44,534 nt of DNA from positions 1 to 44,534 of the forward strand of contig JAFXZY010000008.1 in assembly GCA_017541025.1 (NCBI GenBank), in the 5' to 3' direction. The stretch comes from Bacteroidaceae bacterium (GTDB taxonomy: Bacteria > Bacteroidota > Bacteroidia > Bacteroidales > Bacteroidaceae). Under the pieces are notes generated by a model that was not told where the DNA came from, searched no databases, and was given only the letters and a program-made list of their open reading frames with translations. Made by a program: the position numbers and the translations under genes. Positions 1-19,700 of this stretch are shown in pieces (within the stretch, counting starts at the first letter, position 1; each line of letters opens with the position of its first letter).

Positions 1-102
1 ATGTCATGACTTGTGCGGGAACTTGTTCACAGGCACAAAGCCATGAGCCACCACAGAAGCTCGAAGAGCTAAGACAGCTGAAGAGGGGTTTTCCTGGTTT
101 TC
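1..102 (-). repeat. Cloverleaf palindromic element E (truncated by window start)
   Basis: Partial copy of the ~155-bp element family described at 12983-13319 and 16958-17310. The conserved end GGGTTTTCCTGGTTTTC is at 86-102. The side hairpin AGCTC-GAA-GAGCT is at 58-70. Part of the long inner stem is formed by about 5-22 pairing with about 25-45. The other side hairpin, the outer-stem partner and the opposite end must lie upstream of base 1. In the orientation used for copies A and C this copy is reversed, so a partner copy is expected just outside the window. No gene is seen in 1-287. Confidence 0.75.
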
Positions 103-287: not shown

Positions 288-3200
288 ATGAAAAGAAATT
301 TTCTTTTAATGCTTTTGCTGACCCTCTTGCCGCTGGTAGGTTGGGCAGCAAACCCGACCATAACTTGGAAAAGTTCTGGGTCTAATTCAAAAGTTTGGAA
401 TGGAGTCTCGAACCCAGATTTCATATCCGAGCTTAACGTTAGAAGTGGTTCCGGTGGCACTCCCTGTACCAGCCTAGGTTTAGGTACAAGTTCCCCATCT
501 GGTAACGTTAACCAGTACCGCTACAACTTCTACGCATCTACATCAAGTACTACTCCACTTACTGGAGTACTGGATGCAGGTTCCTATGACCTGAGATTGT
601 TTGTTAAACATCATGCTCAGAATTATGGTACTCAATACCAAGACTATGTGGCACATGTGAGCGTAACAATCACTCAGGCTTCTAACAAGATCGATGCTAT
701 TACGATGGCAGATTATGCATCTGATGGAATACCCACTGCTCCAACTTGTACCGCTGACTTCGGCGCTAGTACTGCTGAATTCAAGTTTGCAACAAGTAAA
801 GATGGCCCTTGGACTTGGACATGGCCCTCTTACCCCACAGCAGCTGGCATTTATTATGTTCAAGCTTCAATTCCTGCAGATCCCAGTGGTAACTACGAAG
901 GAGTTCCCGGAACTGTATTCGCAGGCCAGACATTCAAGGTTGCTAAGAAGGCTACTTTGACTACCGTTCCTACCCTGAAGGGAGGCTTAGTTTATAATGA
1001 CGGCCCTCAGGATCTGATTGAAGGTGAAGCTAAATTCCCTGTTGACTACGAAACTACCAAAGGTGGTGTTAAGTATAAAGTAACTGATTCTGACACTAAG
1101 CCCACAACAGATGAGGGCGCAACTACTGCATTCCCCCAGATGACCGCTGCTGGTAAATACTATGTATGGTACAAGCCTTTGGCTGACGGTGACATTTATA
1201 TTGATGGCGAATGGACTCAGATTGGTTCAACAGGTGTGAAGATTTCTAAGAGAAACATTACAGCTGCTGACTTCACTGTAACACCAAACGATCTTAAATG
1301 GACTGGCTCTGCCCAGGAACTTGTTACTTTTGCATGGAATAATAACAAAGACCGCGGTACAGAGACGATCACTCCCCCTACAGAAACGGCCGTAAATGAA
1401 ACTGGATATGATGTATATGTAGCGATTGCTGGTGACGAGAACCACAATGATTTTGCTAGCACTAAGGTAGCTACTGTTATAATCAATAAGGCTGACAACG
1501 CATTCACAGCTGCTCCCACCGCAACTAATGCTGATCTGACTTATGACGACAATCCAAAAGATTTGTTTGCAGCAGGTACTGCCACTAGTGGTACTGCTAA
1601 GTATAAGGTTGACTGGACATCAACTGATGGTCAAACAACTGTTGAAGGTACATGGGTGGACGCCCCGATTCAAGGCACAAATGCTGGTACTTACACTCTC
1701 TCCTATAAAGCAGAAGCTAACGGTAACTATGTAGCAGTTGATGAAGTTACTCTTGGTACAAAAGTTACAATCAAGCAGGCTCCTGTTGCCATTTCCGCTG
1801 ATCCTACATTGAATATCGGTTGGACATACGATAACAAAGCACATTCTCTCATAACGGCGCCCGAACCTACTGTTACTGGTGGTACTATTAAATACATTGC
1901 CAAGGGTGCAAATGAGACAGAAGCAACTGAGTTTAGTACTTATAGCGATCCAGAAGGCGCAAGAGTAAATGCTGACACATATACCGTTAGCTATGAGCTC
2001 ATAGCAGATAACACCGGTAACTATAAGAATGTTGCTGCTAAGCCTCTCGGTACAGTAACGGTTGCCAAGAAGGAAGTAATCCTTGGTGGCAAGACGCTCC
2101 CAGGTACTATTGAGACCTTCTATGATAAGACTGATGGTAAGGTAGATGGCACTAAGCCTTTATATACCGCATCTGACTTCCTGGAGGATATTGAGATACT
2201 TCCTGGTGATGATCCCAAGGTGATTCTTCCAAAGATTGTCACAATGACATATCCTGCATTTGAGAACCTTATTGTTGGAACTAACGGCGTAGAGTTTACA
2301 GCTAATGACGACAACAATGAAAACTATAAGGCTAAGGTTGTTGGTGGCGCTGCTAATCTGAAGATTGAGGCAATGCCTGCTACTGTAACTACCGATCCTA
2401 CTGGTGTAACCACAGTTTACAATACTGAAGAGCAGAGCCTGATTGCTACAGCTGGTGTAGCTAATGGTGGTACTGTAGTTTACAGCCTCGATAAGGATGC
2501 TGCTCCTGAAACTTGGACTGAGGACATCAAGCGTACTAATGCTGATGACTACACAGTTTACTATTCAGTTAAGCCCGACAAGTTCTATACTTACACAGCT
2601 GCTGCTGTTGACTTCGAAGCTAAGATTACTCCTGCTGCTGTTACTCCTGCAACTATTGCTGCTGCTTCTGACCTCGTATTCGAGAAAGGTCTTGCACAAC
2701 CTTTGGTTAAAGTAACTGGTGAGACCTTGAACGGTACAATGAAGTTTGCATGGAAGGAGTCTAGTTCCGCTAGTTTCAGCGAGTACTCTGATCAGATTCC
2801 TGCTCAGGTAAATGCTGGTACTTACGATGTTGTGTACTACGTTGAGGCAGACAAGAACTACGAGAGCACAGCTGCAATTACAATTACTGGTATTGAAATT
2901 GCTCCTATGGATCTTAAGGATCTTGCTGAGGCTGACAAGTTCACTTTGAATCCTGCAGAAGCTGTATTCACCGGTTCTAACTTGAAGCCTGAGGTTGTTA
3001 CAACTCTCACTGATGAAGACTACGACGTTGACGCAGTTGACGATATGACTGATGTTAACAAGTACACCTTCACCTTCACAGGTAAGGGTAACTACAAAGG
3101 TATAGCTACTGCTACATTCGAGATTACTGCTAATAAGGCTGAGATTTCTAACCTCGCTATCGAGGGTTGGACATACGGTTCTTATGACCCAGTGAAGAAT

Positions 3201-6200
3201 GCTCCAAAGGCTAATACTACATTCGGCGAAGTTACATTCTCTTATACTGACGAGAACGAAGAGGCTCTCTCAGGAGTTCCTGTAGATGCAGGTACATACT
3301 TTGTAGTAGCTAACGTTGCTGCTTCAGCAAACTGGGCTGCTGCTGATCCTGTGAAGTTCCAATTCAACATCAAGCAGAAGCCTGTTACTCCTACAGCTCC
3401 TAAGGCTCACGCTCTGACCTACAACGGACTTGATCAGGCTCTTGTTGATGCAGGTTTCGCAGAAGGTGCAACTATCCAGTATGCTACTGGTGAAGTAGAA
3501 CCCGCTATCACTGCTTACAGCGATGCAATTCCCGAAGAAAAGAATGCAGCAACTTATAAGGTTTGGTATAAGTTCACTGTTGATCCTAACTACACATTCG
3601 GTAACGCTCTTGAGGCAGGTTCTGTAGACGTTAAGTTGAACCCCGCAAGCATTACCTACAGCTTGGGTAACCAGACTGTAACCTATAATGGTAGCGCTGC
3701 TACTCCAAAGGAGAACGAGGCATACCAGATTACCAATGGTGCTCTGATGGTAGGCGACGGTGATGCATTCACATTCGAGTTCACTGAAATCAATGCTACC
3801 GATGCTAACGAGGACGGCGTTCCCTTCACAAAACTGAAGACTAAATGGACGAAAGAGAATGAACAGAATTATGCTATCCAGTTCAACCTGACCGGTAAGC
3901 TGTTCATCCAGAAGGCTGAGGTTGAGGTTACTGCTCCAGAGCCCAAATCAGACTTGGCATTCAATGATGCAAACCAGCAACTGATGAAGGCTGCTGCTTA
4001 TGCAGAGTTCAATGGTGAGGCATTCGACTTCATCTACTCAGGCAACGGTATTTCTTCTAGCGATTTCACTGAGATTGTCGCTAAGGAAGCTGGTGAATAC
4101 GAAATTTCTTGGAAGGTTACCGATCCCGGCAAGAACTTCAAGTTCGTAGACGCTGACAAGAAGGACGCTGCTGAAGGTACAATCAAGGCTACTATCGGTG
4201 CTAAGACAGAATGGGCTGCTGCAGTTCCTGCATTTGCTGACGGTGACATCGAGAAGATTTACAATGGCACAAACTTTGCAAATGGTTTCAACCCTGTAGA
4301 CTTCGTTCTGTATGACGACGAAACACCTCTGACTGTTAGTGACTACACTATAGAAGTTAATGAAAAAGCAATCAGCGGTAAGATTATCAATACTGAGTTA
4401 AATGCTTGGAACATTAAAGAGGCTGAAATCACAAATGCCGCCGAGTATAAGATTACTTATAAGGGTATCGGCAACTATGAAGGCGCTAAGGCAGAGTACA
4501 AGGTCGTAGTTGATCCTAAGAAGATTGGAAATGATCTTCTTCAGACCGTAGAGGATATTGAAATTGCAAATGTTCCTCAGGCAACCGATCTTGTATACGA
4601 CAAGAAGACAGATTACTATAAGGAGCCCGTTGTTACATACAAGGTTTCTGAAGAGTCTACTCTGACCCTTGTTAAGGCTGCTGACAAGAAGGACAACGAC
4701 TACACACTTGTACTTACAAGAGACGTAAAACAGGGTGATGAAATTGTTCCTGAAGAAGTTACTGAAATTAGAAACGCTGGTGACTATACTTACACATTCG
4801 AGGGTAAGGGTAACTACAGCGGTAAAGTTACAATTCCTGTAAATATCGCTAAGGCTGAGCTGATTGTAATTGCTCCTAACGCTACCAAGACCTATGACGG
4901 TTCAACTGATGTTGAGCATAAGGAGTTCGGTGAGTTGACTTACAGCGGTCTGCTGAAGGGTGACCATGTAGAACTTGGCGAACTGGAGGTTGAAGACGTA
5001 GTAGCTGTTCCCGAGGAGGCTATCAATGTAGGTGAGTACACTCTTACTATCGACGTAACTGAATTCCCCGAGCAGGAGAACTACGAAATCAGCAAGACCA
5101 ATACTCTTCCCGGTACTCTGACCATCAATCCTGCTGCTCCTGTTAAGATTAGCTTCAACAAGGATGCTAAGTTCGGCAAGCAGTATTCTCAGGAGGATGA
5201 CCTGAGCTTCACAGCTACTGACCTTGTAGTAAATGAAGGCGACGGTGTACTCTTCGATGATAAGGAAGATGTTGCTGAGCTGTTGTATCTCAAGCGCGAG
5301 GCAGGTGAAGACGTAGGTGACTACACGTTGAGTATCGACTACCGTACGAGTCCTGAGGCTACTGCTAAGGCTGTTGAAATATTCAAGAAGAACTACGAGA
5401 AGATTGAGTTCGGTACAGGTACATTCAGAATTGATCCTCTCAAGGCTGCTCTGAAGGTTTCTATCGCTGCTACAAGCAGTACTTACAACGGCAAGGCTCC
5501 ACAGCTTGCATGGGCTGAGGATCTCTCTAACATGGTTGTAACAGGTCTGCCCGAGGGTAAGAAGAAGGATGGCATCTTCACTACATTGCCAACCATCACA
5601 ATTCAAGACGATGAAGAGAATGTTCTCACAGATGCAACTGCTAACGCTGGTGAATACAACATCGTGCTGAGCGGTGGCGTATCTAAGAACTACACAGTCG
5701 TTTCTCTTGTTGGTTCTTACTACACAATCGAGCCTGTTGCAGTAGAGGCTGCATTCAACACTATCCCTGTAGCTGCCGTAGATGTTCCTGCAAAGGATAT
5801 CATGGATCAGGTTACATTCACAGTTAAGGCTGTTAACGAGGAAGACGAGGCTACTCTCGCTGCCAACATGGACAAGTTCGAGGCACAGTGGACTGACCTC
5901 GCAGCAATCACCAACAAGGATGGTAACATCACGGCAACTTCTACCGTTTATGATGCATTAGTAATCGCTTACACAGGCGATGAAGCAGAGCCTAACTTCA
6001 TATTTAAGAAAGAAGAAGATAGATATGGTGACCTGCACATCGGTAATGAAGGCGGTGAAATCGCTCTGAACGATGCTAGTGATGTCGTAACATACGCAAG
6101 TACAAAGACAACCGTTACATTCTCTAACTCTCGTGCTATTAAAGCCGATAAATGGCAAGCATGTGTTCTGCCTTGCACAATCTCTATCCAGGAGTTCTCT

Positions 6201-6785
6201 AAGGCATTCGGCTATGCTGCAATCGACGTATTGGATGAGGAAAGAACCCAGGGTGACGAGATCCACTTCAGCCTGAAGGTTACCGGTAACATCGAAGCCG
6301 GTGTTCCATTCCTCTTCAAGGCTAACGGCGGTACAAAGGAAGATCCTAAGGTTGACTTCATTAAGGTAACACTGAACGACGTAGACGTAGCAAGCACTGC
6401 TGCTCTCGTAGACGAAGGTGTTAACGTAGTTACTGATCCTGACAACAATGTTAAGTTCATTGGTACATTCGAGACTGTAAACATCACAAAGAGCGGCTAC
6501 CGTTACATCTCTAACGGTAAGTGGTACAACACTAAGGACGGCTATGCTAATCCTTATGTAATCAGACCTCTCCGCGCTTACCTCGACCTCACCGAGATGA
6601 CAGGTGCTGCTGGTGCTCGCATCTTCATTGAGGAGCCCGACGGTACTGAGACCGCAATCGACGCTATCGAGTTCGCTAACGAGATTAACGGCGAGAGCAT
6701 CTACACTGTTGACGGTAAGAAGGTTAGCAAGGCTGCTCAGAAGGGTATCTACATCCAGAATGGCAAGAAGATTGCTGTTAAGTAA
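288..6785 (+). CDS. Giant secreted MBG-repeat surface protein
   Basis: 2165 aa. It opens with a clear Sec signal peptide (residues 1-21, ending GWAA). About residues 130-1925 are made of roughly 70-80-residue repeats. Each has the pattern 'LTYNG..Q.L', 'G.V.Y...', 'NAGTYTV.Y.V..D.NY' and a closing 'I.KA' or 'I.PA' strand. This is the MBG/YDG-type immunoglobulin-like repeat found in bacterial adhesins and filamentous surface proteins. Residues from about 1927 form a different globular module, followed by a tail 'IYTVDGKKVSKAAQKGIYIQ' typical of secreted Prevotella proteins and resembling a type IX secretion C-terminal signal. The module is homologous to the 267-aa protein at 7624. No enzymatic motif is visible; adhesion or a cell-surface stalk is inferred. 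A hairpin terminator follows 27 bp after the stop. No convincing promoter was found upstream. Confidence 0.9.
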   Translation: MKRNFLLMLLLTLLPLVGWAANPTITWKSSGSNSKVWNGVSNPDFISELNVRSGSGGTPCTSLGLGTSSPSGNVNQYRYNFYASTSSTTPLTGVLDAGSYDLRLFVKHHAQNYGTQYQDYVAHVSVTITQASNKIDAITMADYASDGIPTAPTCTADFGASTAEFKFATSKDGPWTWTWPSYPTAAGIYYVQASIPADPSGNYEGVPGTVFAGQTFKVAKKATLTTVPTLKGGLVYNDGPQDLIEGEAKFPVDYETTKGGVKYKVTDSDTKPTTDEGATTAFPQMTAAGKYYVWYKPLADGDIYIDGEWTQIGSTGVKISKRNITAADFTVTPNDLKWTGSAQELVTFAWNNNKDRGTETITPPTETAVNETGYDVYVAIAGDENHNDFASTKVATVIINKADNAFTAAPTATNADLTYDDNPKDLFAAGTATSGTAKYKVDWTSTDGQTTVEGTWVDAPIQGTNAGTYTLSYKAEANGNYVAVDEVTLGTKVTIKQAPVAISADPTLNIGWTYDNKAHSLITAPEPTVTGGTIKYIAKGANETEATEFSTYSDPEGARVNADTYTVSYELIADNTGNYKNVAAKPLGTVTVAKKEVILGGKTLPGTIETFYDKTDGKVDGTKPLYTASDFLEDIEILPGDDPKVILPKIVTMTYPAFENLIVGTNGVEFTANDDNNENYKAKVVGGAANLKIEAMPATVTTDPTGVTTVYNTEEQSLIATAGVANGGTVVYSLDKDAAPETWTEDIKRTNADDYTVYYSVKPDKFYTYTAAAVDFEAKITPAAVTPATIAAASDLVFEKGLAQPLVKVTGETLNGTMKFAWKESSSASFSEYSDQIPAQVNAGTYDVVYYVEADKNYESTAAITITGIEIAPMDLKDLAEADKFTLNPAEAVFTGSNLKPEVVTTLTDEDYDVDAVDDMTDVNKYTFTFTGKGNYKGIATATFEITANKAEISNLAIEGWTYGSYDPVKNAPKANTTFGEVTFSYTDENEEALSGVPVDAGTYFVVANVAASANWAAADPVKFQFNIKQKPVTPTAPKAHALTYNGLDQALVDAGFAEGATIQYATGEVEPAITAYSDAIPEEKNAATYKVWYKFTVDPNYTFGNALEAGSVDVKLNPASITYSLGNQTVTYNGSAATPKENEAYQITNGALMVGDGDAFTFEFTEINATDANEDGVPFTKLKTKWTKENEQNYAIQFNLTGKLFIQKAEVEVTAPEPKSDLAFNDANQQLMKAAAYAEFNGEAFDFIYSGNGISSSDFTEIVAKEAGEYEISWKVTDPGKNFKFVDADKKDAAEGTIKATIGAKTEWAAAVPAFADGDIEKIYNGTNFANGFNPVDFVLYDDETPLTVSDYTIEVNEKAISGKIINTELNAWNIKEAEITNAAEYKITYKGIGNYEGAKAEYKVVVDPKKIGNDLLQTVEDIEIANVPQATDLVYDKKTDYYKEPVVTYKVSEESTLTLVKAADKKDNDYTLVLTRDVKQGDEIVPEEVTEIRNAGDYTYTFEGKGNYSGKVTIPVNIAKAELIVIAPNATKTYDGSTDVEHKEFGELTYSGLLKGDHVELGELEVEDVVAVPEEAINVGEYTLTIDVTEFPEQENYEISKTNTLPGTLTINPAAPVKISFNKDAKFGKQYSQEDDLSFTATDLVVNEGDGVLFDDKEDVAELLYLKREAGEDVGDYTLSIDYRTSPEATAKAVEIFKKNYEKIEFGTGTFRIDPLKAALKVSIAATSSTYNGKAPQLAWAEDLSNMVVTGLPEGKKKDGIFTTLPTITIQDDEENVLTDATANAGEYNIVLSGGVSKNYTVVSLVGSYYTIEPVAVEAAFNTIPVAAVDVPAKDIMDQVTFTVKAVNEEDEATLAANMDKFEAQWTDLAAITNKDGNITATSTVYDALVIAYTGDEAEPNFIFKKEEDRYGDLHIGNEGGEIALNDASDVVTYASTKTTVTFSNSRAIKADKWQACVLPCTISIQEFSKAFGYAAIDVLDEERTQGDEIHFSLKVTGNIEAGVPFLFKANGGTKEDPKVDFIKVTLNDVDVASTAALVDEGVNVVTDPDNNVKFIGTFETVNITKSGYRYISNGKWYNTKDGYANPYVIRPLRAYLDLTEMTGAAGARIFIEEPDGTETAIDAIEFANEINGESIYTVDGKKVSKAAQKGIYIQNGKKIAVK

Positions 6786-9859: not shown

Positions 9860-12730
9860 ATGAAACAGTCTTATATGCTCCTTATCATCGCCGGATGCCT
9901 GATGGCGTCTTGCGGCCCCTCTGCCGTAGAGCGGACGAAGAATGGTGTGATTGTGCAAATTGACACGCAAGACCCCACTCAGGCACGACAAGTAGCCCTT
10001 GAGGTACTGGGAGAACGGCTGATACACGTATCTGCCACACCTGAACGTGAATTCTCCAAGAAAGAAAGTCTGGTAGTACTGCCACAACAGACGAAAACGG
10101 ATTTTACCGTTGAGGAAAGTGCTGACTCGGTATTCGTTCGGACAAGAAAACTGACGGCATCCGTCAGCAAAAAGACGGGAGTGGTACACTTTGCCGATGC
10201 CAACGGCCATCTGCTCTTGGCAGAAGAGGAGCAGGGACGCACGTTCCAACCTACAGAAGCAGAGGGTACTCGCGGCTATGCCGTTCAGCAGGTATTCCGT
10301 TCCGCAGCCGACGATGAAGGACTATACGGACTGGGACAACATCAGTCCGACGAATTCAACTATAAAGGTAAGAACGAGGAACTTTTCCAATACAACACAA
10401 AGGTGAGCGTGCCGTTCATCGTCTCTACCGAAGGTTACGGCGTGCTATGGGACAGCTATTCGTTCTGCCGTTTCGGTGCTCCCCTGCCCTATCTGCAGCT
10501 GGGCGATGTCTTCGGTCTGTGTGACAAAGACGGTCAGGAAGGCGCCTTAACGGGTACCTACGTGCCAGCCCAAGGCGAGACGCTGGTGCGGCGCGAAGAC
10601 TCGCTCTACTTTGAATGCAACGACCGTTCCGCACATCTGCAACGTACAGTAAACCTACCCGAGAACTTCCGTTTCGGGGGCAGCAACGTAACCTACGAAG
10701 GAGAACTGACAGCCAAAACCGACGGCATGTACCGCTTCCTACTCTACTACGCCGGCTACGTGAAGGTATATTTAGACAATGAGCTGGTGGTACCCGAACG
10801 ATGGCGTGCTGCCTGGAACCCCAATAGCTGGAAGTTCCAGACCCGGATGGAGGCAGGACAGAAGATGCTGCTGCGCATCGAATGGAAGCCGGACGGAGAC
10901 AAATCCTTCCTGGGCTTACGTGCCATGAATCCCGTATCGGAGGAAGAAAACCGGAAGATGACTTGGTGGAGCGAAATGCAAGAACAAATGGATTACTACT
11001 TTGTGGCCGGCGAGACAATGGACGAGGTAATCAGCGGTTACCGCACCCTGACAGGCAAGGCACCCGTGATGCCCAAATGGGCGATGGGTTTCTGGCAGAG
11101 CCGCGAGCGATACAAGACACAGGAGGAACTGCTGAGTACCCTCGGCGAGTTCCGCAGCAGACAGATTCCCATCGACAACATCGTGCTGGACTGGTTCTAC
11201 TGGAGAGAGAACCAATGGGGCAGCCACGAGTTCGATCCCGAACGGTTCCCCGACCCCAAGGCGATGGTTGACAGCATACATGCCCTGAATGCCCACATGA
11301 TGATTTCGGTCTGGCCGAAATTCTATGCCAACACCGAACACTTCAAGGAATTCGACAAAAACGGCTGGATGTACCGTCAGGCCATCCGCGACAGCATACG
11401 CGACTGGGTAGGACCGGGCTATATCGGTTCCTTCTACGATGCCTACAGCGCAGATGCCCGCAAACTCTTCTGGAAGCAGATGTACGATCACCTGTATCCC
11501 TTGGGCATTGATGCCTGGTGGATGGATGCCAGCGAACCGAATATTGCCGACTGTACCGACTTTGAATACCGACAGGAGTTGTGCGGTCCCACGGCACTCG
11601 GTCCATCGAAGCAATACTTCAATACCTACGCACTTATGAATGCGAAGGCGATTTACGAAGGTCAGCGCGAGGCTGAACCTGACCGACGCGTGTTCCTGCT
11701 GACACGTTCGGGCTTTGCCGGTCTGCAGCGTTACTCCACAGCCACATGGAGCGGTGATATCGGTACCCGATGGGAGGACATGAAGGCACAGATTTCCGCC
11801 GGACTGAACTTCTCGGTCAGCGGTATCCCCTTCTGGACGATGGACATCGGCGGGTTCTCGGTAGAGGGACGCTACTATGCAGCACAGGAAGAATTCAACC
11901 GCACAGGGCACGAGAACAGCGACCTGCGCGAATGGCGCGAGCTGAACACACGCTGGTACCAGTTCGGAGCCTTCTGCCCGCTTTTCCGTGCACACGGACA
12001 ATATCCCTGCCGTGAGCCGTGGAACATAGCTCCCGAAAAGCATCCTGCCTACGAATCCATTGTCTATTACCTGCGCCTTCGCTACCGTCTCATGCCTTAC
12101 CTGTACTCGTTGGCAGGAATGGCGTGCCACGAGGACTACACGCTGATGCGTCCGTTGGTGATGGACTTCACCTCGGACCGCGAGGCACGTAATATCAGCG
12201 ACCAGTTCCTTCTGGGTCCGGCTCTGATGGCAGCACCCGTCTATACATACGGTGCCCGCAGCCGTAGCGTCTATCTTCCCGAAGGCTGTGGCTGGTATGA
12301 TTTCTATACAGGAAGTGCAGTAGGCTGTGGCAGACAAGAAGCAGCTGCCCCATACGAGCGCATTCCGCTCTTCGTGCCTGCAGGCAGCATAATACCTGTT
12401 GGTCCTGACGTACAATATGCTGCCGAACAGCCCAACGCTCCGCTGACAATCTACGTATATACGGGAAAGGATGCCCGCTTCACGCTTTATGAGGACGACG
12501 GTACCACCTACGCCTACGAGAACGGGAAGTTTACTACGATTCCGTTCTCCTGGGACGAGGGGACAGAAACCCTGACCATCGGGGCCCGTCAGGGTGAGTT
12601 CCCCGGTATGGCTGCAAAGCGTACCTTCCGAATTGTGTTTGTCAGCCCCGACAGCCCGAAGCCCTTCGGTAGCGAGGATGGTGCTGTAAGCGTGGAGTAT
12701 GAGGGGGAAAGCCTCTCATTTACCATTTAG
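9860..12730 (+). CDS. GH31 alpha-xylosidase/alpha-glucosidase lipoprotein with PA14 insert
   Basis: 956 aa. It starts with a lipoprotein signal (LMASC, Cys18), so it is membrane anchored. Residues about 30-220 are the N-terminal beta-sandwich. About 225-370 is a PA14 domain ('YEGELTAKTDGMYRFLLYYA', 'KVYLDNELV'), as in the Bacteroides xyloglucan alpha-xylosidase BoGH31A. The barrel follows: 'PKWAMGFWQSRERY', 'DNIVLDWFYW', then 'WWMDASEPN' with the nucleophile Asp556, and 'WSGDIGTRWED' with the likely acid/base Asp633. The C-terminus is beta-rich ('LYEDDGTTYAYENG'). It would remove non-reducing alpha-linked xylose (or glucose) from oligosaccharides; alpha-xylosidase is the better guess because of the PA14 arrangement and the hemicellulose locus. 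The last codons (SLSFTI) lie in a 47-bp sequence repeated downstream. It is convergent to the GH10 operon end. Confidence 0.9.
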   Translation: MKQSYMLLIIAGCLMASCGPSAVERTKNGVIVQIDTQDPTQARQVALEVLGERLIHVSATPEREFSKKESLVVLPQQTKTDFTVEESADSVFVRTRKLTASVSKKTGVVHFADANGHLLLAEEEQGRTFQPTEAEGTRGYAVQQVFRSAADDEGLYGLGQHQSDEFNYKGKNEELFQYNTKVSVPFIVSTEGYGVLWDSYSFCRFGAPLPYLQLGDVFGLCDKDGQEGALTGTYVPAQGETLVRREDSLYFECNDRSAHLQRTVNLPENFRFGGSNVTYEGELTAKTDGMYRFLLYYAGYVKVYLDNELVVPERWRAAWNPNSWKFQTRMEAGQKMLLRIEWKPDGDKSFLGLRAMNPVSEEENRKMTWWSEMQEQMDYYFVAGETMDEVISGYRTLTGKAPVMPKWAMGFWQSRERYKTQEELLSTLGEFRSRQIPIDNIVLDWFYWRENQWGSHEFDPERFPDPKAMVDSIHALNAHMMISVWPKFYANTEHFKEFDKNGWMYRQAIRDSIRDWVGPGYIGSFYDAYSADARKLFWKQMYDHLYPLGIDAWWMDASEPNIADCTDFEYRQELCGPTALGPSKQYFNTYALMNAKAIYEGQREAEPDRRVFLLTRSGFAGLQRYSTATWSGDIGTRWEDMKAQISAGLNFSVSGIPFWTMDIGGFSVEGRYYAAQEEFNRTGHENSDLREWRELNTRWYQFGAFCPLFRAHGQYPCREPWNIAPEKHPAYESIVYYLRLRYRLMPYLYSLAGMACHEDYTLMRPLVMDFTSDREARNISDQFLLGPALMAAPVYTYGARSRSVYLPEGCGWYDFYTGSAVGCGRQEAAAPYERIPLFVPAGSIIPVGPDVQYAAEQPNAPLTIYVYTGKDARFTLYEDDGTTYAYENGKFTTIPFSWDEGTETLTIGARQGEFPGMAAKRTFRIVFVSPDSPKPFGSEDGAVSVEYEGESLSFTI

Positions 12731-12880
12731 CCATTTACGATTTACCATTTATTGTCTGGAGTCTGGAGACAAGGGTCTGGAGGCGATTGAGAGTTGAGAG
12801 CCTCTCATTTACCATTTAGCCATTTACGATTTACCATTTATTGTCAAGAGTCAAGAGTCTGGAGGCGATTTAGAGTTGAG
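12710..12880. repeat. Tandem ~89-bp duplication covering the end of GH31
   Basis: 47 bases at 12710-12756 recur exactly at 12799-12845, an 89-bp offset. They are made of the words 'catttaccatttagccattt' and 'acgatttaccatttattgtc'. The flanking 'gtctggaggcgatt.agagttgagag' words also recur. The first copy contains the last GH31 codons and its stop. Downstream to 12982 there are 'ggttatcggttattggttat' words and no gene. Confidence 0.85.
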
Positions 12881-12982
12881 AGGCAGTTTGTAAAGGTTAT
12901 CGGTTATTGGTTATCGGTTATAGACGAAAAACGGTAAACAGTAAAGGTTCTTCTTCAATTTTGTTGAAATGTAGGAATTAAA

Positions 12983-13319
12983 GAAAACCGCCAAAACCCG
13001 CTTTTGTTGCTCATGGTTTTCACCCATTCGTATTCAGTCCGTGAATCATCGAATTCAAATTAATTTGCCTTCGCTGCTTCACAAACCGAATACAGCCTTA
13101 CGGCTTGAGCAACAGAACCGAAAAACAGAGAAAACCGTTTACAATTTACAATGAACAGTAAACATTTTCTCTGTTTTTCTTCCATTGATTTCAAAGCATG
13201 TAATGCTGCGGGTGGTGTTGATGATGAATGATGGAAGCTTGCTTACGTTCATACATCAGCAATAGCATACGCGAATCTTGTTAAAGATTGAAATCAAGGG
13301 AAGGGTTTTTCTGGTTTTT
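12983..13319. repeat. Head-to-head pair of cloverleaf palindromic elements (A and B)
   Basis: Copy A is 12983-13136 (154 bp). It has the end motif GAAAACCGCCAAAACCC, outer stem 13001-13013 with 13106-13118, a weak left hairpin 13014-13026, a ~31-bp inner stem (13030-13060 with 13063-13093), right hairpin AGCC-TTAC-GGCT 13094-13105, and the end motif GAAAAACAGAGAAAACC (13120-13136). Copy B is 13165-13319 (155 bp) in reverse orientation. It has TTTTCTCTGTTTTTC, outer stem 13180-13193 with 13289-13302 (13 of 14 pairs), hairpins GCAT-GTA-ATGC 13196-13206 and ATCTT-GTTA-AAGAT 13275-13288, and the end motif GGGTTTTTCTGGTTTTT (13303-13319). The two copies are 28 bp apart, between the convergent GH31 and GH10 genes. 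I do not recognise the family. Confidence 0.85.
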
Positions 13320-13346
13320 GTTTATTTACTCGTTAACTTTCAATTC

Positions 13347-15197
13347 TCAATTGTAAAAGAGGGTACCGTTTACGATGTAGAGGCCCTTCTTTAAACATCG
13401 GACATTGAGCTTTCGACCTGAAAGGTCGTAGATACCCTTTGAGACATCGGTGGTGTTTGAATCGGAAACGCCATCAATGCCCGTTTCTGTGGGCTCTTCG
13501 CCAAAAAGTCCGCGAACAAAGCCCGCATAGACATGCTTCCGGTAGTTATTGATATCCCAGATACCGACAGGCGTGTCCGCACGCCAACTGCTGCCAGAGG
13601 GGGAATCGTTCGTGCACCACTGGCAGATGCCCCATTGCTGGGCTGGTGGAACCAGGCGGAAATACTCCTTGATGATCCACTCGTAGAAGTCGGCCATGTT
13701 CTTGTGCTGCGTTTCTGTCATCTTATTTGTCGGGACAGCCTTTCCGCTAGCATCATTATAGCCCATATCCATCTCGCTTACACGTACCCATTTGCCTGTG
13801 GCAGCCATCAGTCGGAACATATTGCTGATGGCGTTTTTCTTGCTGTTCTGGGTATAGCTGTTCTCGTAATACGAGATGTGCATCTGGGTACCGATACCGT
13901 CGATTCTCGTAACGCCGTCAGCCTCCCATTTCTTTATCCAGTTGATGAGCGACTTTAACTTCTTGTTCTGATCCCAGTCTGATTCCAGGTTATAGTCGTT
14001 GATGAAGAGTACCATGTCCTCAGGACCGTACTTACGTGCCAGACGGCAGGCCTGTCGGACGTATTCCAGAGAACCCATGTAGTCTTGCCAGAAGAAGTTC
14101 TCGCCGCCCACATCCCATGTGGCATCGGGATTGCCGTTCGGGTTGTACCCTTGCAGTACGTAGTTGCCCGATCCGTCATCACCGCCTCCCGAGATGGCTT
14201 CGTTGACCAGATCCCATGCCTTCACTTTACCGCCACAGGCCTCCATCATTCCCTTAATCCACTTATCCATTGCATAGACCAGCGTGTCATGGCGTTCTTG
14301 CGGTGTCAGCGGGATGGTCTTACCCGTATAGCCCTCGAACTTGATGTTCTTAATGTAGATGTCGCCTACGAAGTCGCCGCACTGAAGCATGAAGAAGTTT
14401 CCCGACACTACTGCCTTATAATCTACCGTCACTTCCTTCCATTCCGTGGTGAAGGGAATATTGGGGTAATCCCCGTTGTCCCAGTCGCCCAGCTTACTAT
14501 GTAGGACACCTGCCTTTGACCCGCGTACTGTCATCGTCATTTTGTAGGTCTTGCCTACTTCGGCGATAATATTTTCCATTGCCAGGAACTGTACATCCCA
14601 CGAGTTCGGGCATATCTTTGTCGTATGTATGGTAAGGCCGTTTGTGGCATCGAATGACAGCGAGTATCCGAATTTCGACTCATCCGATTTCCATCCTACT
14701 TTTTTATCCGTTCTGAAGTCCTTTTGGGCAATTACCGTCAGAGCTTCACCGCCGCCGCTGGGGTCTGGCTTGTCGGCAAGGAGTTTCAGCAGCCAGCTTT
14801 TCGGTTGTTGCGAGTGCCAGGCAAGGGTGTGCCCATATACGTTCAGTCCGGCATGGGTGGCAACCTCTACATAGTTTTTCACGGTAGTGAAGTTCATGTT
14901 GCCGTTGCCATCCACGCAGCTCCCCATCTTCATGGCATTACCGGCAACAGTTTCCGTGAAGTTCTTGTTAATCATGTTTCTGACCAACGGCTTATTCAGA
15001 TAGTCAATGACGGTTGTTCCGGCACCCAGTTTAAAGTTCGGGTACTTGTAGCTGTTAATATAGTCCTTGAGGGCCATATACTCGTCCAGATACCGGTAGT
15101 TATCATTATCGGGTTTACCCAACTCAAATCTCTCCTGCGCCATAGCAGAAGTCGCCATACAAGCTGCAAACAGCCAAATCAAAACATTTCTCAGCAT
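13347..15197 (-). CDS. GH10 endo-1,4-beta-xylanase with inserted carbohydrate-binding module
   Basis: 616 aa with a signal peptide ending AMAQ. The GH10 barrel starts about residue 50 ('FKLGAGTTVIDYL', 'GHTLAWHSQQP'). It is interrupted at about 155-295 by a beta-sandwich of the CBM4/CBM22 type ('WDVQFLAMEN', 'FMLQCGDFVGDIYIKNIKFE'), then resumes. The acid/base is Glu333 in 'WDLVNEAI' and the nucleophile is Glu475 in 'RVSEMDMG'. A CBM inserted in this barrel loop is typical of Bacteroidetes xylanases linked to xus-type loci. The C-terminus ends in the Prevotella secretion-type tail 'IYDLSGRKL...KGLYIVNG'. It would cut the xylan backbone at the cell surface or outside. It is the last gene of the minus-strand cluster, 161 bp after GH5. 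The stop TGA lies in an AATTGA-type repeat word. Confidence 0.93.
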   Translation of the reverse strand: MLRNVLIWLFAACMATSAMAQERFELGKPDNDNYRYLDEYMALKDYINSYKYPNFKLGAGTTVIDYLNKPLVRNMINKNFTETVAGNAMKMGSCVDGNGNMNFTTVKNYVEVATHAGLNVYGHTLAWHSQQPKSWLLKLLADKPDPSGGGEALTVIAQKDFRTDKKVGWKSDESKFGYSLSFDATNGLTIHTTKICPNSWDVQFLAMENIIAEVGKTYKMTMTVRGSKAGVLHSKLGDWDNGDYPNIPFTTEWKEVTVDYKAVVSGNFFMLQCGDFVGDIYIKNIKFEGYTGKTIPLTPQERHDTLVYAMDKWIKGMMEACGGKVKAWDLVNEAISGGGDDGSGNYVLQGYNPNGNPDATWDVGGENFFWQDYMGSLEYVRQACRLARKYGPEDMVLFINDYNLESDWDQNKKLKSLINWIKKWEADGVTRIDGIGTQMHISYYENSYTQNSKKNAISNMFRLMAATGKWVRVSEMDMGYNDASGKAVPTNKMTETQHKNMADFYEWIIKEYFRLVPPAQQWGICQWCTNDSPSGSSWRADTPVGIWDINNYRKHVYAGFVRGLFGEEPTETGIDGVSDSNTTDVSKGIYDLSGRKLNVRCLKKGLYIVNGTLFYN

Positions 15198-15311
15198 AAG
15201 CCTTATCTATTTAACCATCCCAGCCTCTCCCCTGGTCTCTCTCCGAGGAGAGTTTAGAGTTTAGAGTTTAGAGGGAGGGAAGGGGGGGTAGAGTTGAGAG
15301 ATTAGAGTAAT

Positions 15312-15338
15312 GTTGCGTTAGGCAGAACCTAACGCAAC
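15312..15338. repeat. Hairpin GTTGCGTTAGG...CCTAACGCAAC between GH5 and GH10
   Basis: An 11-bp perfect stem with loop CAGAA. The core GCGTTAGG-N5-CCTAACGC recurs at 19726-19746, between the glycan-binding protein and GH3. There is no T-tract, so an intra-operon RNA hairpin rather than a terminator is likelier. Nearby, 15218-15250 holds a copy of the CCTCTCCCC/GGAGAG repeat, and 15250-15300 holds 'gagtttagagttta' words. Confidence 0.7.
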
Positions 15339-15358
15339 ACTAATCTCCTGGTTGTAAG

Positions 15359-16909
15359 TTATTTAGGAGCATTGTTGTAAACAGTCTCGAGGGTGTAGGT
15401 GGCATCATCGCTGGTGGCAGCCTTAATCATGGTTTGAACAATAGGCTCTGAAGCATTGATGTAGGTGCCGTCGTTGTGGTTGAAATAGCCGTGATGCTCG
15501 TTGCCCGCTCCCTGAGAGTTGTTGTCCCAAAGAATGACCGGCATACCATAGGTATGGGCTGCACGACATACATACTCGAGATAGTAATTGCGGAAGAAGT
15601 TAGAGCGGTTTGTCTTATGCTTCACACAACCGTATTCACCTATATAAACAGGGATGTTATTGGAGATATATTTCTGCTGCAGTTTACGGAAAGTCTCCAC
15701 CACATGTTCCTCGTTGCTGCCCGGTTGGTACTTGCCCGCAGCGGCTGTATGACCCCATTCCGATTTGCCGTCGCTGTTCTCGGGTGTCAGCGTGAAAGTA
15801 TTCGGGTCGTAGAAGTGCACGCTGACCATGAGGCGGTTAGCAGGATCGGTAGGCAATACGAAACTTTCCTCAACGGCGAATGCCGGATTTGAGGCATAGC
15901 ACGGAATGCCTATCCAACGTGTCGCGTTGTTGCCTCCTGTAGCTCGGATGGTGTTCACCACCAACTGGTTCCACTCGTTGAGTGTCCGGTACTGTTTGCC
16001 CCCGTCTGTGCGGTTGGCTCCCCAGCCCCAGCCGCCGTCCTGAATCTCGTTGAACGACTCGAAGAAGAGGAAGCTACCCTTGTCCTTGAAAACCTCGGCA
16101 ATCTGTTTCCAGGTGGCCTCGATACGCTTCTTGATATTGGTGTTCGTTGTCTCGTCGTTAGCAGCCCCCTTGATATCGAGCCAGTATTCATCGTGGTGCA
16201 GGTTCAGGATGACATTGAGACCGGCTGCTTCTGCCCATTCCACATTCTTTTTGACTTCAGCCATGTAACTGTCGTCGATGGTCCAAGTGTCAGGTGTCTG
16301 ATAGTTGCCCCAAGTGGTGCAGATACGCACGGTACTAGCTCCCACCCCTTTCAGGTTCGTGTAGAGAGCTGTAGTAGGCGTTGCACCGTCCCAATATCCC
16401 CACTGATTAGGATTATTGTCCTTTCCCGAGCTGGTATCGAAATGGTTGCCGAGGTTCCACCCCCACCCCAGTTTCTTGGTGATGTAGGCAGCCTCCTGAC
16501 CGCTATCCGGCTGATCATCTGCTGCCTTGGTAGCAAAATTCAGCGTAAACTCGGGTGCCGAAGCGGTGGCATCCGTTGTTGAGACAATGGCTCCCTTCGC
16601 AACCCGCAAAGTATATCTCGTTCCTTCCGCCAAGGCCAGAGGGATGTCGACGGAAACAGACGATGAGGTATTCGTCTTGGCAGTAACTGCCACACCGTTA
16701 AGTGTGATGCCTGTGCCAGTCACCTTCACGGGATTGTTGTAACTTAGCGTGAGTACGGTTGTTGTGCTGGCATCTACCACAGTTCCCTCTGCTATGGACT
16801 GTGAACGCAACTCAATGGTAATTGACGGCTTTTCGTTGTTTTCACTATTACAACTGAAAGAAAACAATACAAATACAATAAATAATATCCGATTAAAATA
16901 TGATTTCAT
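15359..16909 (-). CDS. GH5 endo-glycanase lipoprotein (endoxylanase or xyloglucanase/glucanase)
   Basis: 516 aa lipoprotein (LFSFSC, Cys20). Residues about 30-130 form a bacterial Ig-like domain of the Big_5 type ('LTLSYNNPVKVTGTGITLNG', 'TRYTLRVAKGAIVS'). The GH5 barrel runs from about 145 to 500: 'GWGWNLGNHFD', 'LNVILNLHHDEYW', acid/base Glu288 in 'FESFNEIQ', 'VSVHFYDP', and nucleophile Glu425 in 'VYIGEYGC'. Subfamily cannot be settled by eye. GH5_4 (xyloglucan or glucan) and GH5_21 (xylanases of Bacteroidetes xylan loci) are both possible. The GH10 neighbour favours xylan, while GH31 and GH3 fit xyloglucan. It is a surface-anchored endo-enzyme by its lipobox. It lies 475 bp downstream of GH3, separated by two cloverleaf elements. 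Confidence 0.85.
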   Translation of the reverse strand: MKSYFNRILFIVFVLFSFSCNSENNEKPSITIELRSQSIAEGTVVDASTTTVLTLSYNNPVKVTGTGITLNGVAVTAKTNTSSSVSVDIPLALAEGTRYTLRVAKGAIVSTTDATASAPEFTLNFATKAADDQPDSGQEAAYITKKLGWGWNLGNHFDTSSGKDNNPNQWGYWDGATPTTALYTNLKGVGASTVRICTTWGNYQTPDTWTIDDSYMAEVKKNVEWAEAAGLNVILNLHHDEYWLDIKGAANDETTNTNIKKRIEATWKQIAEVFKDKGSFLFFESFNEIQDGGWGWGANRTDGGKQYRTLNEWNQLVVNTIRATGGNNATRWIGIPCYASNPAFAVEESFVLPTDPANRLMVSVHFYDPNTFTLTPENSDGKSEWGHTAAAGKYQPGSNEEHVVETFRKLQQKYISNNIPVYIGEYGCVKHKTNRSNFFRNYYLEYVCRAAHTYGMPVILWDNNSQGAGNEHHGYFNHNDGTYINASEPIVQTMIKAATSDDATYTLETVYNNAPK

Positions 16910-16957
16910 TACGCGTTGTTATTTATTTAAGTTCCGGAATTTTATTATGTGAATGAA

Positions 16958-17310
16958 GAAAACCGGGAAAACCCTTTTCTGTTGTTTATGAGTAATACTC
17001 ACATGTTTTCAATCTGTCCATCAGCGAACGCAAGTGAACTTGCCTTCTCTGACGCCCATATTGAAAACAGCCTTGCGGCTTAAACCACAGAAAAGAAAAA
17101 CATCAAAAACCAGACTTGTCAGAAAAAAATAATCATTAATATTGTAAAACAGAATGTTTTCTCGGTTTTTCTTTTTGTGTGGTTGAGGACCCATCGGGGC
17201 TGTGATGATGACATAGGTTTTTGTCTGGGAGTTTGCTCACATGAAAAAGGATATGTCATTAGCACAAAAGACGACAGTCACAACCACACAAAAAGGGTTT
17301 TTGAGGTTTT
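16958..17310. repeat. Head-to-head pair of cloverleaf palindromic elements (C and D)
   Basis: Copy C is 16958-17111 (154 bp). It has the end motif GAAAACCGGGAAAACCC (16958-16974), outer stem 16975-16988 with 17081-17094 (13 of 14 pairs), left hairpin GAGT-AAT-ACTC 16990-17000, inner stem starting with a perfect 10 bp (17004-17013 with 17060-17069), right hairpin AGCC-TTGC-GGCT 17069-17080, and the end motif GAAAAACATCAAAAACC. Copy D is 17156-17310 (155 bp) in reverse. It has a perfect 14-bp outer stem TTTTTGTGTGGTTG 17172-17185 with 17281-17294, hairpins CCC-ATC-GGG 17190-17198 and GAC-GACA-GTC 17270-17279, and the end motif GGGTTTTTGAGGTTTT. The pair fills the GH3-GH5 gap. AACGTT-type hexamers follow at 17334-17359. 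No gene is seen in 16910-17384. Confidence 0.85.
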
Positions 17311-17384
17311 AGTTATTTCCGTGTGGGAAAAATAGTTATCGTTAGCGTTAACGTTAGCATTGAATTATTTATAATTGAATCAGA

Positions 17385-19700
17385 CTATTCACATTGTACA
17401 ACAACCCGCTGGTCAGCGATGAACAGGCGGAACTCACCTGGCTCCAGCACCCACTGGCCGTCAAGATTGACGAAGGACAGGTCGCTGGCCGGAAGTTGCA
17501 GGGTTACGGTACTTGTCTGACCTGGCTGTAGCTCCACCTTTTCGAAGCCACGCAAACGGCAGTTGTCAGGGGTGAGTGATGCTACGAGGTCGCTGCTGAA
17601 GAGCAAAACGCTTTCCTTAGTGGGGCGCTGGCCTGTATTCGTTACATCGACACTGACCATCAGGACATCTCCCTCGCGGAAGGTTTCCTTATCTACCTTC
17701 ATATTGCTATATGTTACAGTGGTATAGTGCAACCCGAATCCGAAAGGCCACTGAACGTCCATCACGGCATCGTAGTTATAGTTACCCTCCATCTGTCCCA
17801 TGTTCTCGCAAGGCTTGTAGTCGTAGGTCACAAGAGAACCGGTATATTTAGGATAGGTATAAGGCATACGGCCTGTGAAGTCGGCATCGCCAGCCAAGAG
17901 GCGTGCCAAGGCAATTCCGCCATAGTTACTGGGCAAGAAGGTATGTACGACAGCCTGGCAAAGCGGCTCAATGTCGCGAATGATACGCGGACGGCCCTCT
18001 GCCAGCACAAGTACGACAGGTTTACCAGTCTGTGCCAGTAAGCGAACCATCTCCTTCTGGTTGTCGCTCAGGTTCAGATCGTTGATATTACCCGGTGTCT
18101 CGCAGTAGCTGTTTTCGCCCATACAAGCAATGACAACATCAGCCCGCCGTGCAGCAGCAGTCAGCTGGTTCCAGTCGTCGGCTTGATGGTCGAGGTTAAA
18201 GTCACGGGCATCCCACTGAACGCCCTGCAGGTACTGCACGTTTGTTTCGCCAAAGCGAGTCTTCAATGCCTGCTGGAAAGTAGGATACTGGCCCATCAGC
18301 GGAGCGAGCTCGTTGGTACGGTCGCCCTGCCAGGTGTAGCTCCAGCCTCCGTTCATACCTCGCAAGTTGTCGGCATTGGGACCACAGACAAGGATGCGAG
18401 AGCCCTCGTTCAGCGGCAGAACTGACTGCTCGTTCTTCAGCAGCACCATACACTCTTCAGCTATCTGCTCAGCCTCCTGTGCAAAGCCATCGCTGGCGAA
18501 GTCGGGGAATTCCTTTGCCAATTCCTGAACATCCTTATCCCAGGTTTCCTTATCCAGGAGTCCCAGACGGATTTTCAGGCGGAGGATGCGACGGACAGCA
18601 TCGTCGATGCGGGCCTTAGATACACGGCCTTCATCAACCAGCTCACGCAACAAGTCACAGAACTCCACCTCGTAGGGTACCATAGACATATCGATACCTG
18701 CATTGATAGCCATGCAGATGGCATCCTTCTTTGTAGCAGCCACATGGTCGCGGAGACATATATTATTAATGTCCGCCCAGTCCGTAACAATCATACCGTC
18801 CCATTGCAGTTCCTCCTTCAGCCAAGTATTCAGATACTTGGCATTGGCATGGAAGGGTACGCCATTGTTAACGCCCGAATTGACCATCAGCGACAAGGCA
18901 CCTGCCTGGATAGCAGCACGGAAGGGCTGGAAGAACTTCTCGCGCATCTCACGGTCGGTGACACTGCTGGGTGTACGGTCCTTTCCGCTGACAGGCACGC
19001 CATAGGCCATATAGTGTTTGAGACAGGCAGCCACACGGTTGGCAGGAATGTGGTTAGGGTCGTCACCCTGATAACCCAACACAGCCTGGCGAGCCATCTC
19101 GCAGTTCAGATAGACATCCTCGCCATAGCTTTCCCACATACGGCTCCATAGGGGCTGTCGGCCCAGGTCCATCACAGGTGAATAAACCCAGGGAATGAGG
19201 CAGGCGCGACTCTCGTAGGCAGCTATCTCGCTGACGCGGCGCGGAATATTACGGTTGAAGGAAGCCGCCTGTCCCACCTCCTGCGGGAACAGCGTAGCTC
19301 CCCAAGTATAGGAAGCGCCGTGAATCTGATCGACACCATAGATTTGCGGTACTCCGGCACAAGTTTCCATGGAGAGTTGATTGAGGCGGCGAATAAGAGC
19401 GCTCCACGCCTCCGGTTTCTGTGCGACTCCCTTTGGGACGTTCAGAATGCTACCCACATGGTACTTTTCGAATACGTTCTTCAAAGCCTCTTCGTTCAGA
19501 CGGAATTCCTGACTTTGCATGTCGGTGATGACATCGATGGTCAGTTCGCACATCTGTCCTATCTTCTCGTCCAGCGAGAGGTTCGAAAGGGTCTGCTCAA
19601 CCTGTTTTTCCACCTCGGCATTTTGGGGAATAGCGGGTTGACGTACTTGGCTGGTTGTACATGCTGTGGCCAATATAGACATGATAATAATTTTTTTCAT
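17385..19700 (-). CDS. GH3 beta-glucosidase/beta-xylosidase lipoprotein
   Basis: 771 aa. It has a short lipoprotein signal (ILATAC, Cys14). The N-terminal barrel starts 'LSLDEKIGQM'. It contains 'IYGVDQIHGASYTWGATLFP', 'VAACLKHYMAYG' and 'MIVTDWADINNI' with the catalytic nucleophile Asp307. The second alpha/beta domain ('VLPLNEGSRILVCGPNAD', 'DVVIACMGENSYCETPGNI') follows, and a fibronectin-III-like domain ends the protein ('VTNTGQRPTKESVLLF', 'WVLEPGEFRLFI'). The 'VDQIHG...FPQ' pattern is that of the BoGH3B-like beta-glucosidases. In a xylan context beta-xylosidase activity is also possible. It probably acts on imported or periplasm-facing oligosaccharides. It lies 127 bp after the glycan-binding protein. 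Confidence 0.88.
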   Translation of the reverse strand: MKKIIIMSILATACTTSQVRQPAIPQNAEVEKQVEQTLSNLSLDEKIGQMCELTIDVITDMQSQEFRLNEEALKNVFEKYHVGSILNVPKGVAQKPEAWSALIRRLNQLSMETCAGVPQIYGVDQIHGASYTWGATLFPQEVGQAASFNRNIPRRVSEIAAYESRACLIPWVYSPVMDLGRQPLWSRMWESYGEDVYLNCEMARQAVLGYQGDDPNHIPANRVAACLKHYMAYGVPVSGKDRTPSSVTDREMREKFFQPFRAAIQAGALSLMVNSGVNNGVPFHANAKYLNTWLKEELQWDGMIVTDWADINNICLRDHVAATKKDAICMAINAGIDMSMVPYEVEFCDLLRELVDEGRVSKARIDDAVRRILRLKIRLGLLDKETWDKDVQELAKEFPDFASDGFAQEAEQIAEECMVLLKNEQSVLPLNEGSRILVCGPNADNLRGMNGGWSYTWQGDRTNELAPLMGQYPTFQQALKTRFGETNVQYLQGVQWDARDFNLDHQADDWNQLTAAARRADVVIACMGENSYCETPGNINDLNLSDNQKEMVRLLAQTGKPVVLVLAEGRPRIIRDIEPLCQAVVHTFLPSNYGGIALARLLAGDADFTGRMPYTYPKYTGSLVTYDYKPCENMGQMEGNYNYDAVMDVQWPFGFGLHYTTVTYSNMKVDKETFREGDVLMVSVDVTNTGQRPTKESVLLFSSDLVASLTPDNCRLRGFEKVELQPGQTSTVTLQLPASDLSFVNLDGQWVLEPGEFRLFIADQRVVVQCE

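Follow-up and report, generated by a model that had tools for sequence, protein, structure and literature searches.

The window analysed here, bases 1-44534 of contig C83 (JAFXZY010000008.1; 44,534 nucleotides) of a Bacteroidaceae genome, contains five copies, A to E, of a 155-nt repeat with a cloverleaf fold. The original prediction had picked them out from the sequence, and their coordinates, lengths and shared ends proved to be as claimed (Table 1). Copies A and C lie on the + strand and B, D and E on the - strand, which makes A/B and C/D convergent pairs. These two units, of 337 bp and 354 bp, enclose no gene. Unit A/B sits between convergent gene ends, with the 3' end of a GH31 gene on one side and that of a GH10 gene on the other; unit C/D lies downstream of a GH3 gene and upstream of a GH5 gene. 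Contig C53 also starts inside a like element, as C83 does within copy E; such contig starts are expected because a repeat breaks assembly.

The ends of the copies had been described as direct, not inverted. This holds within one copy, but across a convergent pair the outer ends are inverted: each pair has the left outer end GAAAACCnnnAAAACCC and a right end that is its near reverse complement. Inverted terminal repeats of the form (A)AAAACCnnnAAAACCC ... GGGTTTTnnnGGTTTT are present in A/B, C/D and other units, and the outer consensus of the copies reads TTTaAAC-AAAAACCnnnAAAACCC. The copies had also been taken for a family of elements in themselves. The repeats are real, but they are not free-standing; they are the ends of inverted-pair units, which in relatives have a gene for a GxxExxY nuclease between them. 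We conclude that the copies very probably terminate a mobile DNA element that exists both with and without the gene. Units A/B and C/D of the window are best read as gene-free derivatives of a ~0.9-kb element, resembling miniature inverted-repeat transposable elements (MITEs).

Table 1. Cloverleaf copies and associated features in the window (E, E-value of the match to covariance model R1)
Feature	Position	Strand	Remarks
Copy E, outer part of cloverleaf end	1..102	-	R1 match E=6.8e-6, 3' cut off; truncated by contig start
Outer extension preceding copy A	12946..12982	+	L280:1203-1242, beside a gene-bearing element of G128, versus window 12947-12986, 87.5% identity; similar flank at L005, L006, L010, L012
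Copy A, left cloverleaf end of unit A/B	12983..13136	+	R1 E=8.5e-25
A/B spacer, 28 bp, gene-free	13137..13164	.	
Copy B, right cloverleaf end of unit A/B, then GTT	13165..13319	-	R1 match 13163-13319, E=1.2e-22
Copy C, left cloverleaf end of unit C/D	16958..17111	+	R1 E=6.6e-28
C/D spacer, 44 bp, gene-free	17112..17155	.	
Copy D, right cloverleaf end of unit C/D, then GTT	17156..17311	-	R1 E=3.9e-32
Stretch with unit C/D, missing at matching site in relatives G051, G128	16910..17376	.	bounds approximate

Copies A-D and the truncated copy E fold into four-way junctions whose stems covary. From the window's own genome, eleven full copies were located by their end pattern, not by structure, and aligned on sequence alone. 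RNAalifold predicted 23 pairs on this alignment, 17 of which had changed on both sides, in agreement with the paired changes noted originally. A covariance model, R1, was built from the same 11 copies. Its matches comprised 256 aligned ids (in one set, 150 of 191 were aligned), which were reduced to 199 of ~140-180 bp with recognisable ends and then to 125 non-redundant copies. Outer arms (14 positions) were placed through the conserved ends and not through folding; their pairing was 68% within a copy versus 46% when arms were swapped between copies, and pairing of at least 80% was reached by 56/125 copies versus 174/15,500 swapped combinations. The minimum free energy (MFE) fold was a closed three-branch cloverleaf in 90/125 copies versus 20/2,500 dinucleotide shuffles (109/125 copies with DNA energies; median energy z = -6.1 against shuffles); the 125-copy counts of arm pairing and folding lean towards the fold because R1 rewards pairing, a bias absent from the 11-copy test. 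Chance hairpins were ruled out by the shuffles and arm swaps. The two cores of one unit had a median identity of 57% (54% for random pairs) and reached at least 80% in 5/76 units, one reversed duplicate included. Since the cores of a unit are hardly more alike than random ones, the typical unit is not one long hairpin.

Selection on the folded form, which had also been proposed, is seen as a preference for one strand. The outward-reading strand, composed of inner repeat, fold and outer repeat and being the reverse complement of the orientation used in the original prediction, folds better in 120/125 copies with DNA energies and in 117/125 with RNA energies. The same strand is better in 27/27 matches (taken from 37) of an extra set from outgroup and other GxxExxY loci. 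Mismatches in 1x1 loops are strand-biased (+ strand: C.T 188, A.C 91, T.T 48, C.C 47, G.T 30, A.A 9, A.G 4, G.G 1), the outward strand having mostly G.A, G.T, A.A and G.G. It is known that d(GNNA) loops are stable in DNA and that RNA tetraloops favour GNRA, with a purine as the third base. Side-hairpin triloops of the outward strand are GNA in 90/137 cases (~13% expected from loop composition), 59 of them C-G-closed, and tetraloops are GNNA in 50/70, 37 of them C-G-closed, with a pyrimidine as the third base in 29 and a purine in 21. An energy-free count restricted to perfect stems gave GNA in 78/126 and GNNA in 37/64 (third base 22 pyrimidine, 15 purine). Triloops of the GNA type closed by C-G form a family that is stable in DNA (excerpt of PMC5815330). 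Because the loops are GNA and GNNA with a third base at least as often pyrimidine as purine, unlike GNRA, we read the selected form as single-stranded DNA, and the folded outward strand in this state is likely to be the functional form.

In a rival view the cloverleaf is a structured RNA read from the outward strand, GxxExxY acts on RNA and the units resemble excised intervening sequences. The unpaired bases of the outward strand are indeed purine-rich, the RNA-energy MFE is also lower on this strand, and its 1x1 loops have G.T 91 versus A.C 30 after complementing the + strand counts. However, there is no wobble bias in the outer stem alone (+ strand: G.T 24, A.C 28), and the third base of the loops is a pyrimidine at least as often as a purine. 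On each strand one unit end folds better and the other worse, which would suit two element ends rather than one transcript. Rfam 15 yielded no match at gathering score in the window and none at E<=1 in 12900-17400. We regard the RNA explanation as quite improbable. Of the nearest ideas offered originally, a folded recombination site or mobile-element end is retained, and a structured RNA is disfavoured by the loop types and the lack of an Rfam match. A tRNA scan of the window found none.

The gene that lies between such ends was found in relatives. A pair in G045 (L081) encloses an open reading frame for a PD-(D/E)XK protein of the PF13366 / TIGR04256 'GxxExxY' family, and PF13366 genes adjoin cloverleaf copies in several genomes. 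TIGR04256 bit scores (cut-off 35) were 113.9 for protein P0001, 140.2 for L118, 145.6 for L103 and 98.1 for L079. The GxxExxY subfamily was searched for in a collection of 84,980 species (by its own description), and the best 80 of 129 relatives were analysed. By title, all 80 loci belong to Bacteroidales or Bacteroidetes, including Xylanibacter brevis ATCC 19188 and Hallella mizrahii. Within 500 bp of the gene, R1 found a + copy upstream in 65 loci, a - copy downstream in 66, both in 59 and neither in 8, while copies of the wrong orientation lay upstream in 9 loci and downstream in 11; the tally of 59/80 draws on 150 aligned matches plus 43 more from the table of 191 rows, with shadows and the weakest matches omitted. 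The element at these loci has a median span of 894 bp. Gene-bearing forms with these ends are common and their catalytic residues are invariant.

A non-duplicate set of 75 convergent units, obtained after removing 9 repeats, falls into two classes: 38 units of <=600 bp, all lacking GxxExxY, and 37 units of >=750 bp, 36 of which carry it, with none in between. As the sample was partly collected through the gene, only the existence of the classes carries weight, not their shares. The sole long unit with no visible GxxExxY, L198:2969-3847 of X. brevis, has a repeat-like filling.

In the own genome, R1 gave 25 matches at E<=1. Thirteen are full-length with E<1e-16 (11 of these 13 being the training set), and the others are five opposite-strand shadows below 1e-3 and seven partial, weak or shadow matches. 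At E<=0.001, matches occur in 38/101 genomes of the genus sample, own included, with up to 26 per genome. The family is a real one, as originally held. An order-wide search with model R2 found matches in 5/393 genomes, own included; its absences are weak because only 7 candidates per genome were scored. Neither a tblastn search for GxxExxY in the 14 outgroup loci of this search nor an inspection of 217 pattern matches in viral contigs revealed a GxxExxY gene or a relative, respectively. A dense cluster was seen in G017:C20 (L078-L080), where 13 copies lie in ~38 kb and pairs alternate with genes such as Abi_2 and GxxExxY.

The original prediction had suggested comparing occupied and empty sites between strains; among relatives, unit C/D differs in this way. 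G051 and G128 have 26-29 bp in place of the window's 476-479, and G081 carries the unit. At the A/B site G051 has a single + copy. Another pair of the own genome, on C52, is shared with G051, and G081 has a GxxExxY element of a second subfamily in that intergenic space. Gene-free and gene-bearing forms are also connected by sequence: one end of a gene-bearing element in G128 is 86-87% identical to the gene-free ends of own C72 and 89% identical to one of G051, and the outer flank of this element matches that of copy A at 87.5% over 40 bp. One could alternatively consider the copies to be resident intergenic repeats, such as terminators or chromosome-structure sites, that are immobile now and were spread earlier by a lost element. 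The window units are intergenic, A/B lying between convergent gene ends, and some genomes have copies without the associated gene, as this would predict. However, close relatives differ in their units, and the gene-bearing forms described above, with their shared ends and invariant catalytic residues, are common. We consider resident repeats very improbable.

Two side observations concern these sites. The C52 space (L085:7138-7499 in the own genome, G081:C11:68480-69620 at L103) may be an insertion hot spot. In G081 and G128 the GH10 gene beside unit A/B (window 13347-15197) has the opposite orientation, and one breakpoint lies close to the unit.

Other GxxExxY genes were also inspected. The second subfamily, at 27-29% identity to P0001, includes the single PF13366 gene of the own genome (C32, L118). 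Cloverleaf cores with other terminal repeats bracket the genes at L118, L101 and L107 and are found on one side in L103; L282 also has a cloverleaf core. Inverted repeats of whatever kind do seem general around GxxExxY: they exceeded the 95th percentile of controls (94 control places) in 20/22 loci tested (from 30), a contrast that may be inflated, since most of the control DNA is probably coding. A loose cloverleaf detector (outer stem >=8) applied to GxxExxY flanks gave 25/30 versus 24/30 for shuffles and hence no separation. In the flanks of L093-L122, GxxExxY genes of other subfamilies often lie between inverted arrays of short motifs with ~10-11 bp spacing by eye, and the motifs vary between subfamilies. 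L103 (G081:C11) has a terminal inverted repeat of ~45 bp on both sides of the second-subfamily element (CTCCTATGC... AGATCTCACAGAT type), which the own genome also carries, upstream of the L007 match.

What moves the element is a separate question, and here we lean slightly towards the GxxExxY protein itself. The units could also be mobile with GxxExxY as cargo or regulator and another enzyme as the mover, for instance an IS200/IS605-type Y1 transposase, host resolvases or replication restart. This is suggested by G000 and G056, which are rich in copies and lack a gene of the associated subfamily, and by the use of single-stranded DNA secondary structures at element ends by Y1 transposases (excerpt of PMC6006769). 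However, GxxExxY is inside 36/37 long units and 0/38 short ones, and other GxxExxY genes too lie between inverted repeats (the 20/22 above). Y1_Tnp matches (E<=0.001) occur in 14/38 copy-bearing versus 26/63 copy-free genomes (Fisher p 0.68), and the own genome has none at this threshold. We regard a different mover as unlikely, and a Y1 transposase acting in trans is not indicated.

The full element of ~0.9 kb consists of an outer repeat (A)AAAACCnnnAAAACCC, the cloverleaf, an inner repeat, the GxxExxY gene and the same type of end in inverted orientation. We suggest that the outward strand, once single-stranded at a replication fork or in a cruciform, would fold into the four-way junction. 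The GxxExxY protein would bind the fold and the terminal repeats and cut near the AAC/GTT terminus, and cutting would move or copy the element, with gene-free units served in trans. Cut-and-paste, copying through repair and transfer of single-stranded DNA are candidate chemistries. As a whole, the model in which the ends act as folded single-stranded DNA and GxxExxY is the acting enzyme seems to us rather probable.

Several observations weigh against this model or parts of it. The own genome has 13 strong copies yet lacks a gene from the associated subfamily at E<=1e-20, and G056 has 19 copies and no PF13366 match; both assemblies are incomplete. One or both ends are missing within 500 bp in 21/80 GxxExxY loci (7/80 have <500 bp on one side), and the share of gene-bearing units, partly gathered via the gene, is no frequency. 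Cloverleaf cores at E<1e-5 were found in just 5/49 other-subfamily loci scanned, some of them overlapping, so most other GxxExxY genes do without ends of this type. The extra 27 matches have GNNA in only 5/25 tetraloops (GNA in 14/21 triloops), and the overall excess of G.T over A.C on the outward strand is what RNA would give likewise. The protein-fold comparison is mostly below the level where chance matches occur, and the match to T7 endonuclease I lacks significance (E 0.7-0.8), with an hhalign probability of 48.5 when the two were compared pairwise. No target-site duplication was found in 72 distinct units, where a TTTAAAC-like flank may hide a short one, and the junction of the empty C/D sites is placed only approximately. 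Finally, mobility is read from sequence comparison, and movement itself was not observed. For the protein, PADLOC gave no match for P0001 and a weak Cas4 match for L118 (best E 0.009), and PHROGs gave a CRISPR-associated family for L118 (3.2e-6) and matches of only E 0.0066 and weaker for P0001. We take the structure 4ic1 to be Cas4.

These units have features in common with several known systems. Integron attC sites are imperfect hairpins of which a single strand is recognised, and each is one long hairpin serving a tyrosine integrase; the ends described here differ by their four-way junction, inverted pairing and different gene. IS200/IS605 elements and their non-autonomous derivatives are likewise small and have gene-free relatives; their ends act as folded single-stranded DNA, as the ends described here probably do. 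Their subterminal secondary structures are used by a Y1 HUH transposase (excerpt of PMC6006769), whereas the present ends are inverted 155-nt four-way junctions and a PD-(D/E)XK GxxExxY gene lies inside, in 36/37 long units, with no association to Y1_Tnp. Prokaryotic MITEs such as BrickBuilt of Porphyromonas gingivalis are similarly short, intergenic, multi-copy and gene-free, with inverted terminal repeats. BrickBuilt has 23-nt tandem repeats and terminal inverted repeats resembling ISPg1/ISPg9, and the excerpted description mentions neither a cloverleaf nor a GxxExxY parent (PMC4596501). The 38 gene-free units of <=600 bp are short, dispersed and free of a transposase gene, and have inverted terminal repeats; the gene-bearing relatives that share their ends (59/80 loci) are a candidate parent. 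Target-site duplications are frequent in MITEs, though not universal. Repetitive extragenic palindromes (REPs) and bacterial interspersed mosaic elements, with the REP-associated tyrosine transposase RAYT (TnpA-REP), are also dispersed palindromic repeats and are thought to be spread in trans by a nuclease. REPs have GTAG or GTGG beside the hairpin (excerpt of PMC6006769); window copies A-D, the ones scanned, lack this tag, and on the folding strand their fold starts after GTTTTTC and is four-way.

GxxExxY is a curated family for which the TIGR04256 and PF13366 descriptions give no biological role, and its link to an element offers a testable one. Among the titles and abstracts listed by searches of an open-access library there was no description of these elements and no role for GxxExxY, which is named in passing in PMC8934634 (excerpt). 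Covariation over the whole four-way junction, together with DNA-type loop caps, means that sequence alone argues for selection on folded single-stranded DNA and names the strand. We tentatively extend the model, at somewhat less than an even chance, to GxxExxY proteins as the movers of a large class of small elements, with the cloverleaf branch representing PD-(D/E)XK transposition on a self-made Holliday-junction-like single-stranded end. If true, a PD-(D/E)XK protein would be the only enzyme of a mobile element, acting on a branched single-stranded DNA end, which to our knowledge is unlike the DDE, HUH, serine and tyrosine enzymes. The gene-free units occupy intergenic regions of polysaccharide-use loci, as in this window.

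Two further features of the region were recorded. Shortly after copy E, window 288-6785 holds an open reading frame of 2165 residues with no Pfam match at E<=0.001. Short repeats between genes, 30-100 bp long (window 12717-12751 and 12806-12840, and L083:118-214) recur in many genomes of the genus.

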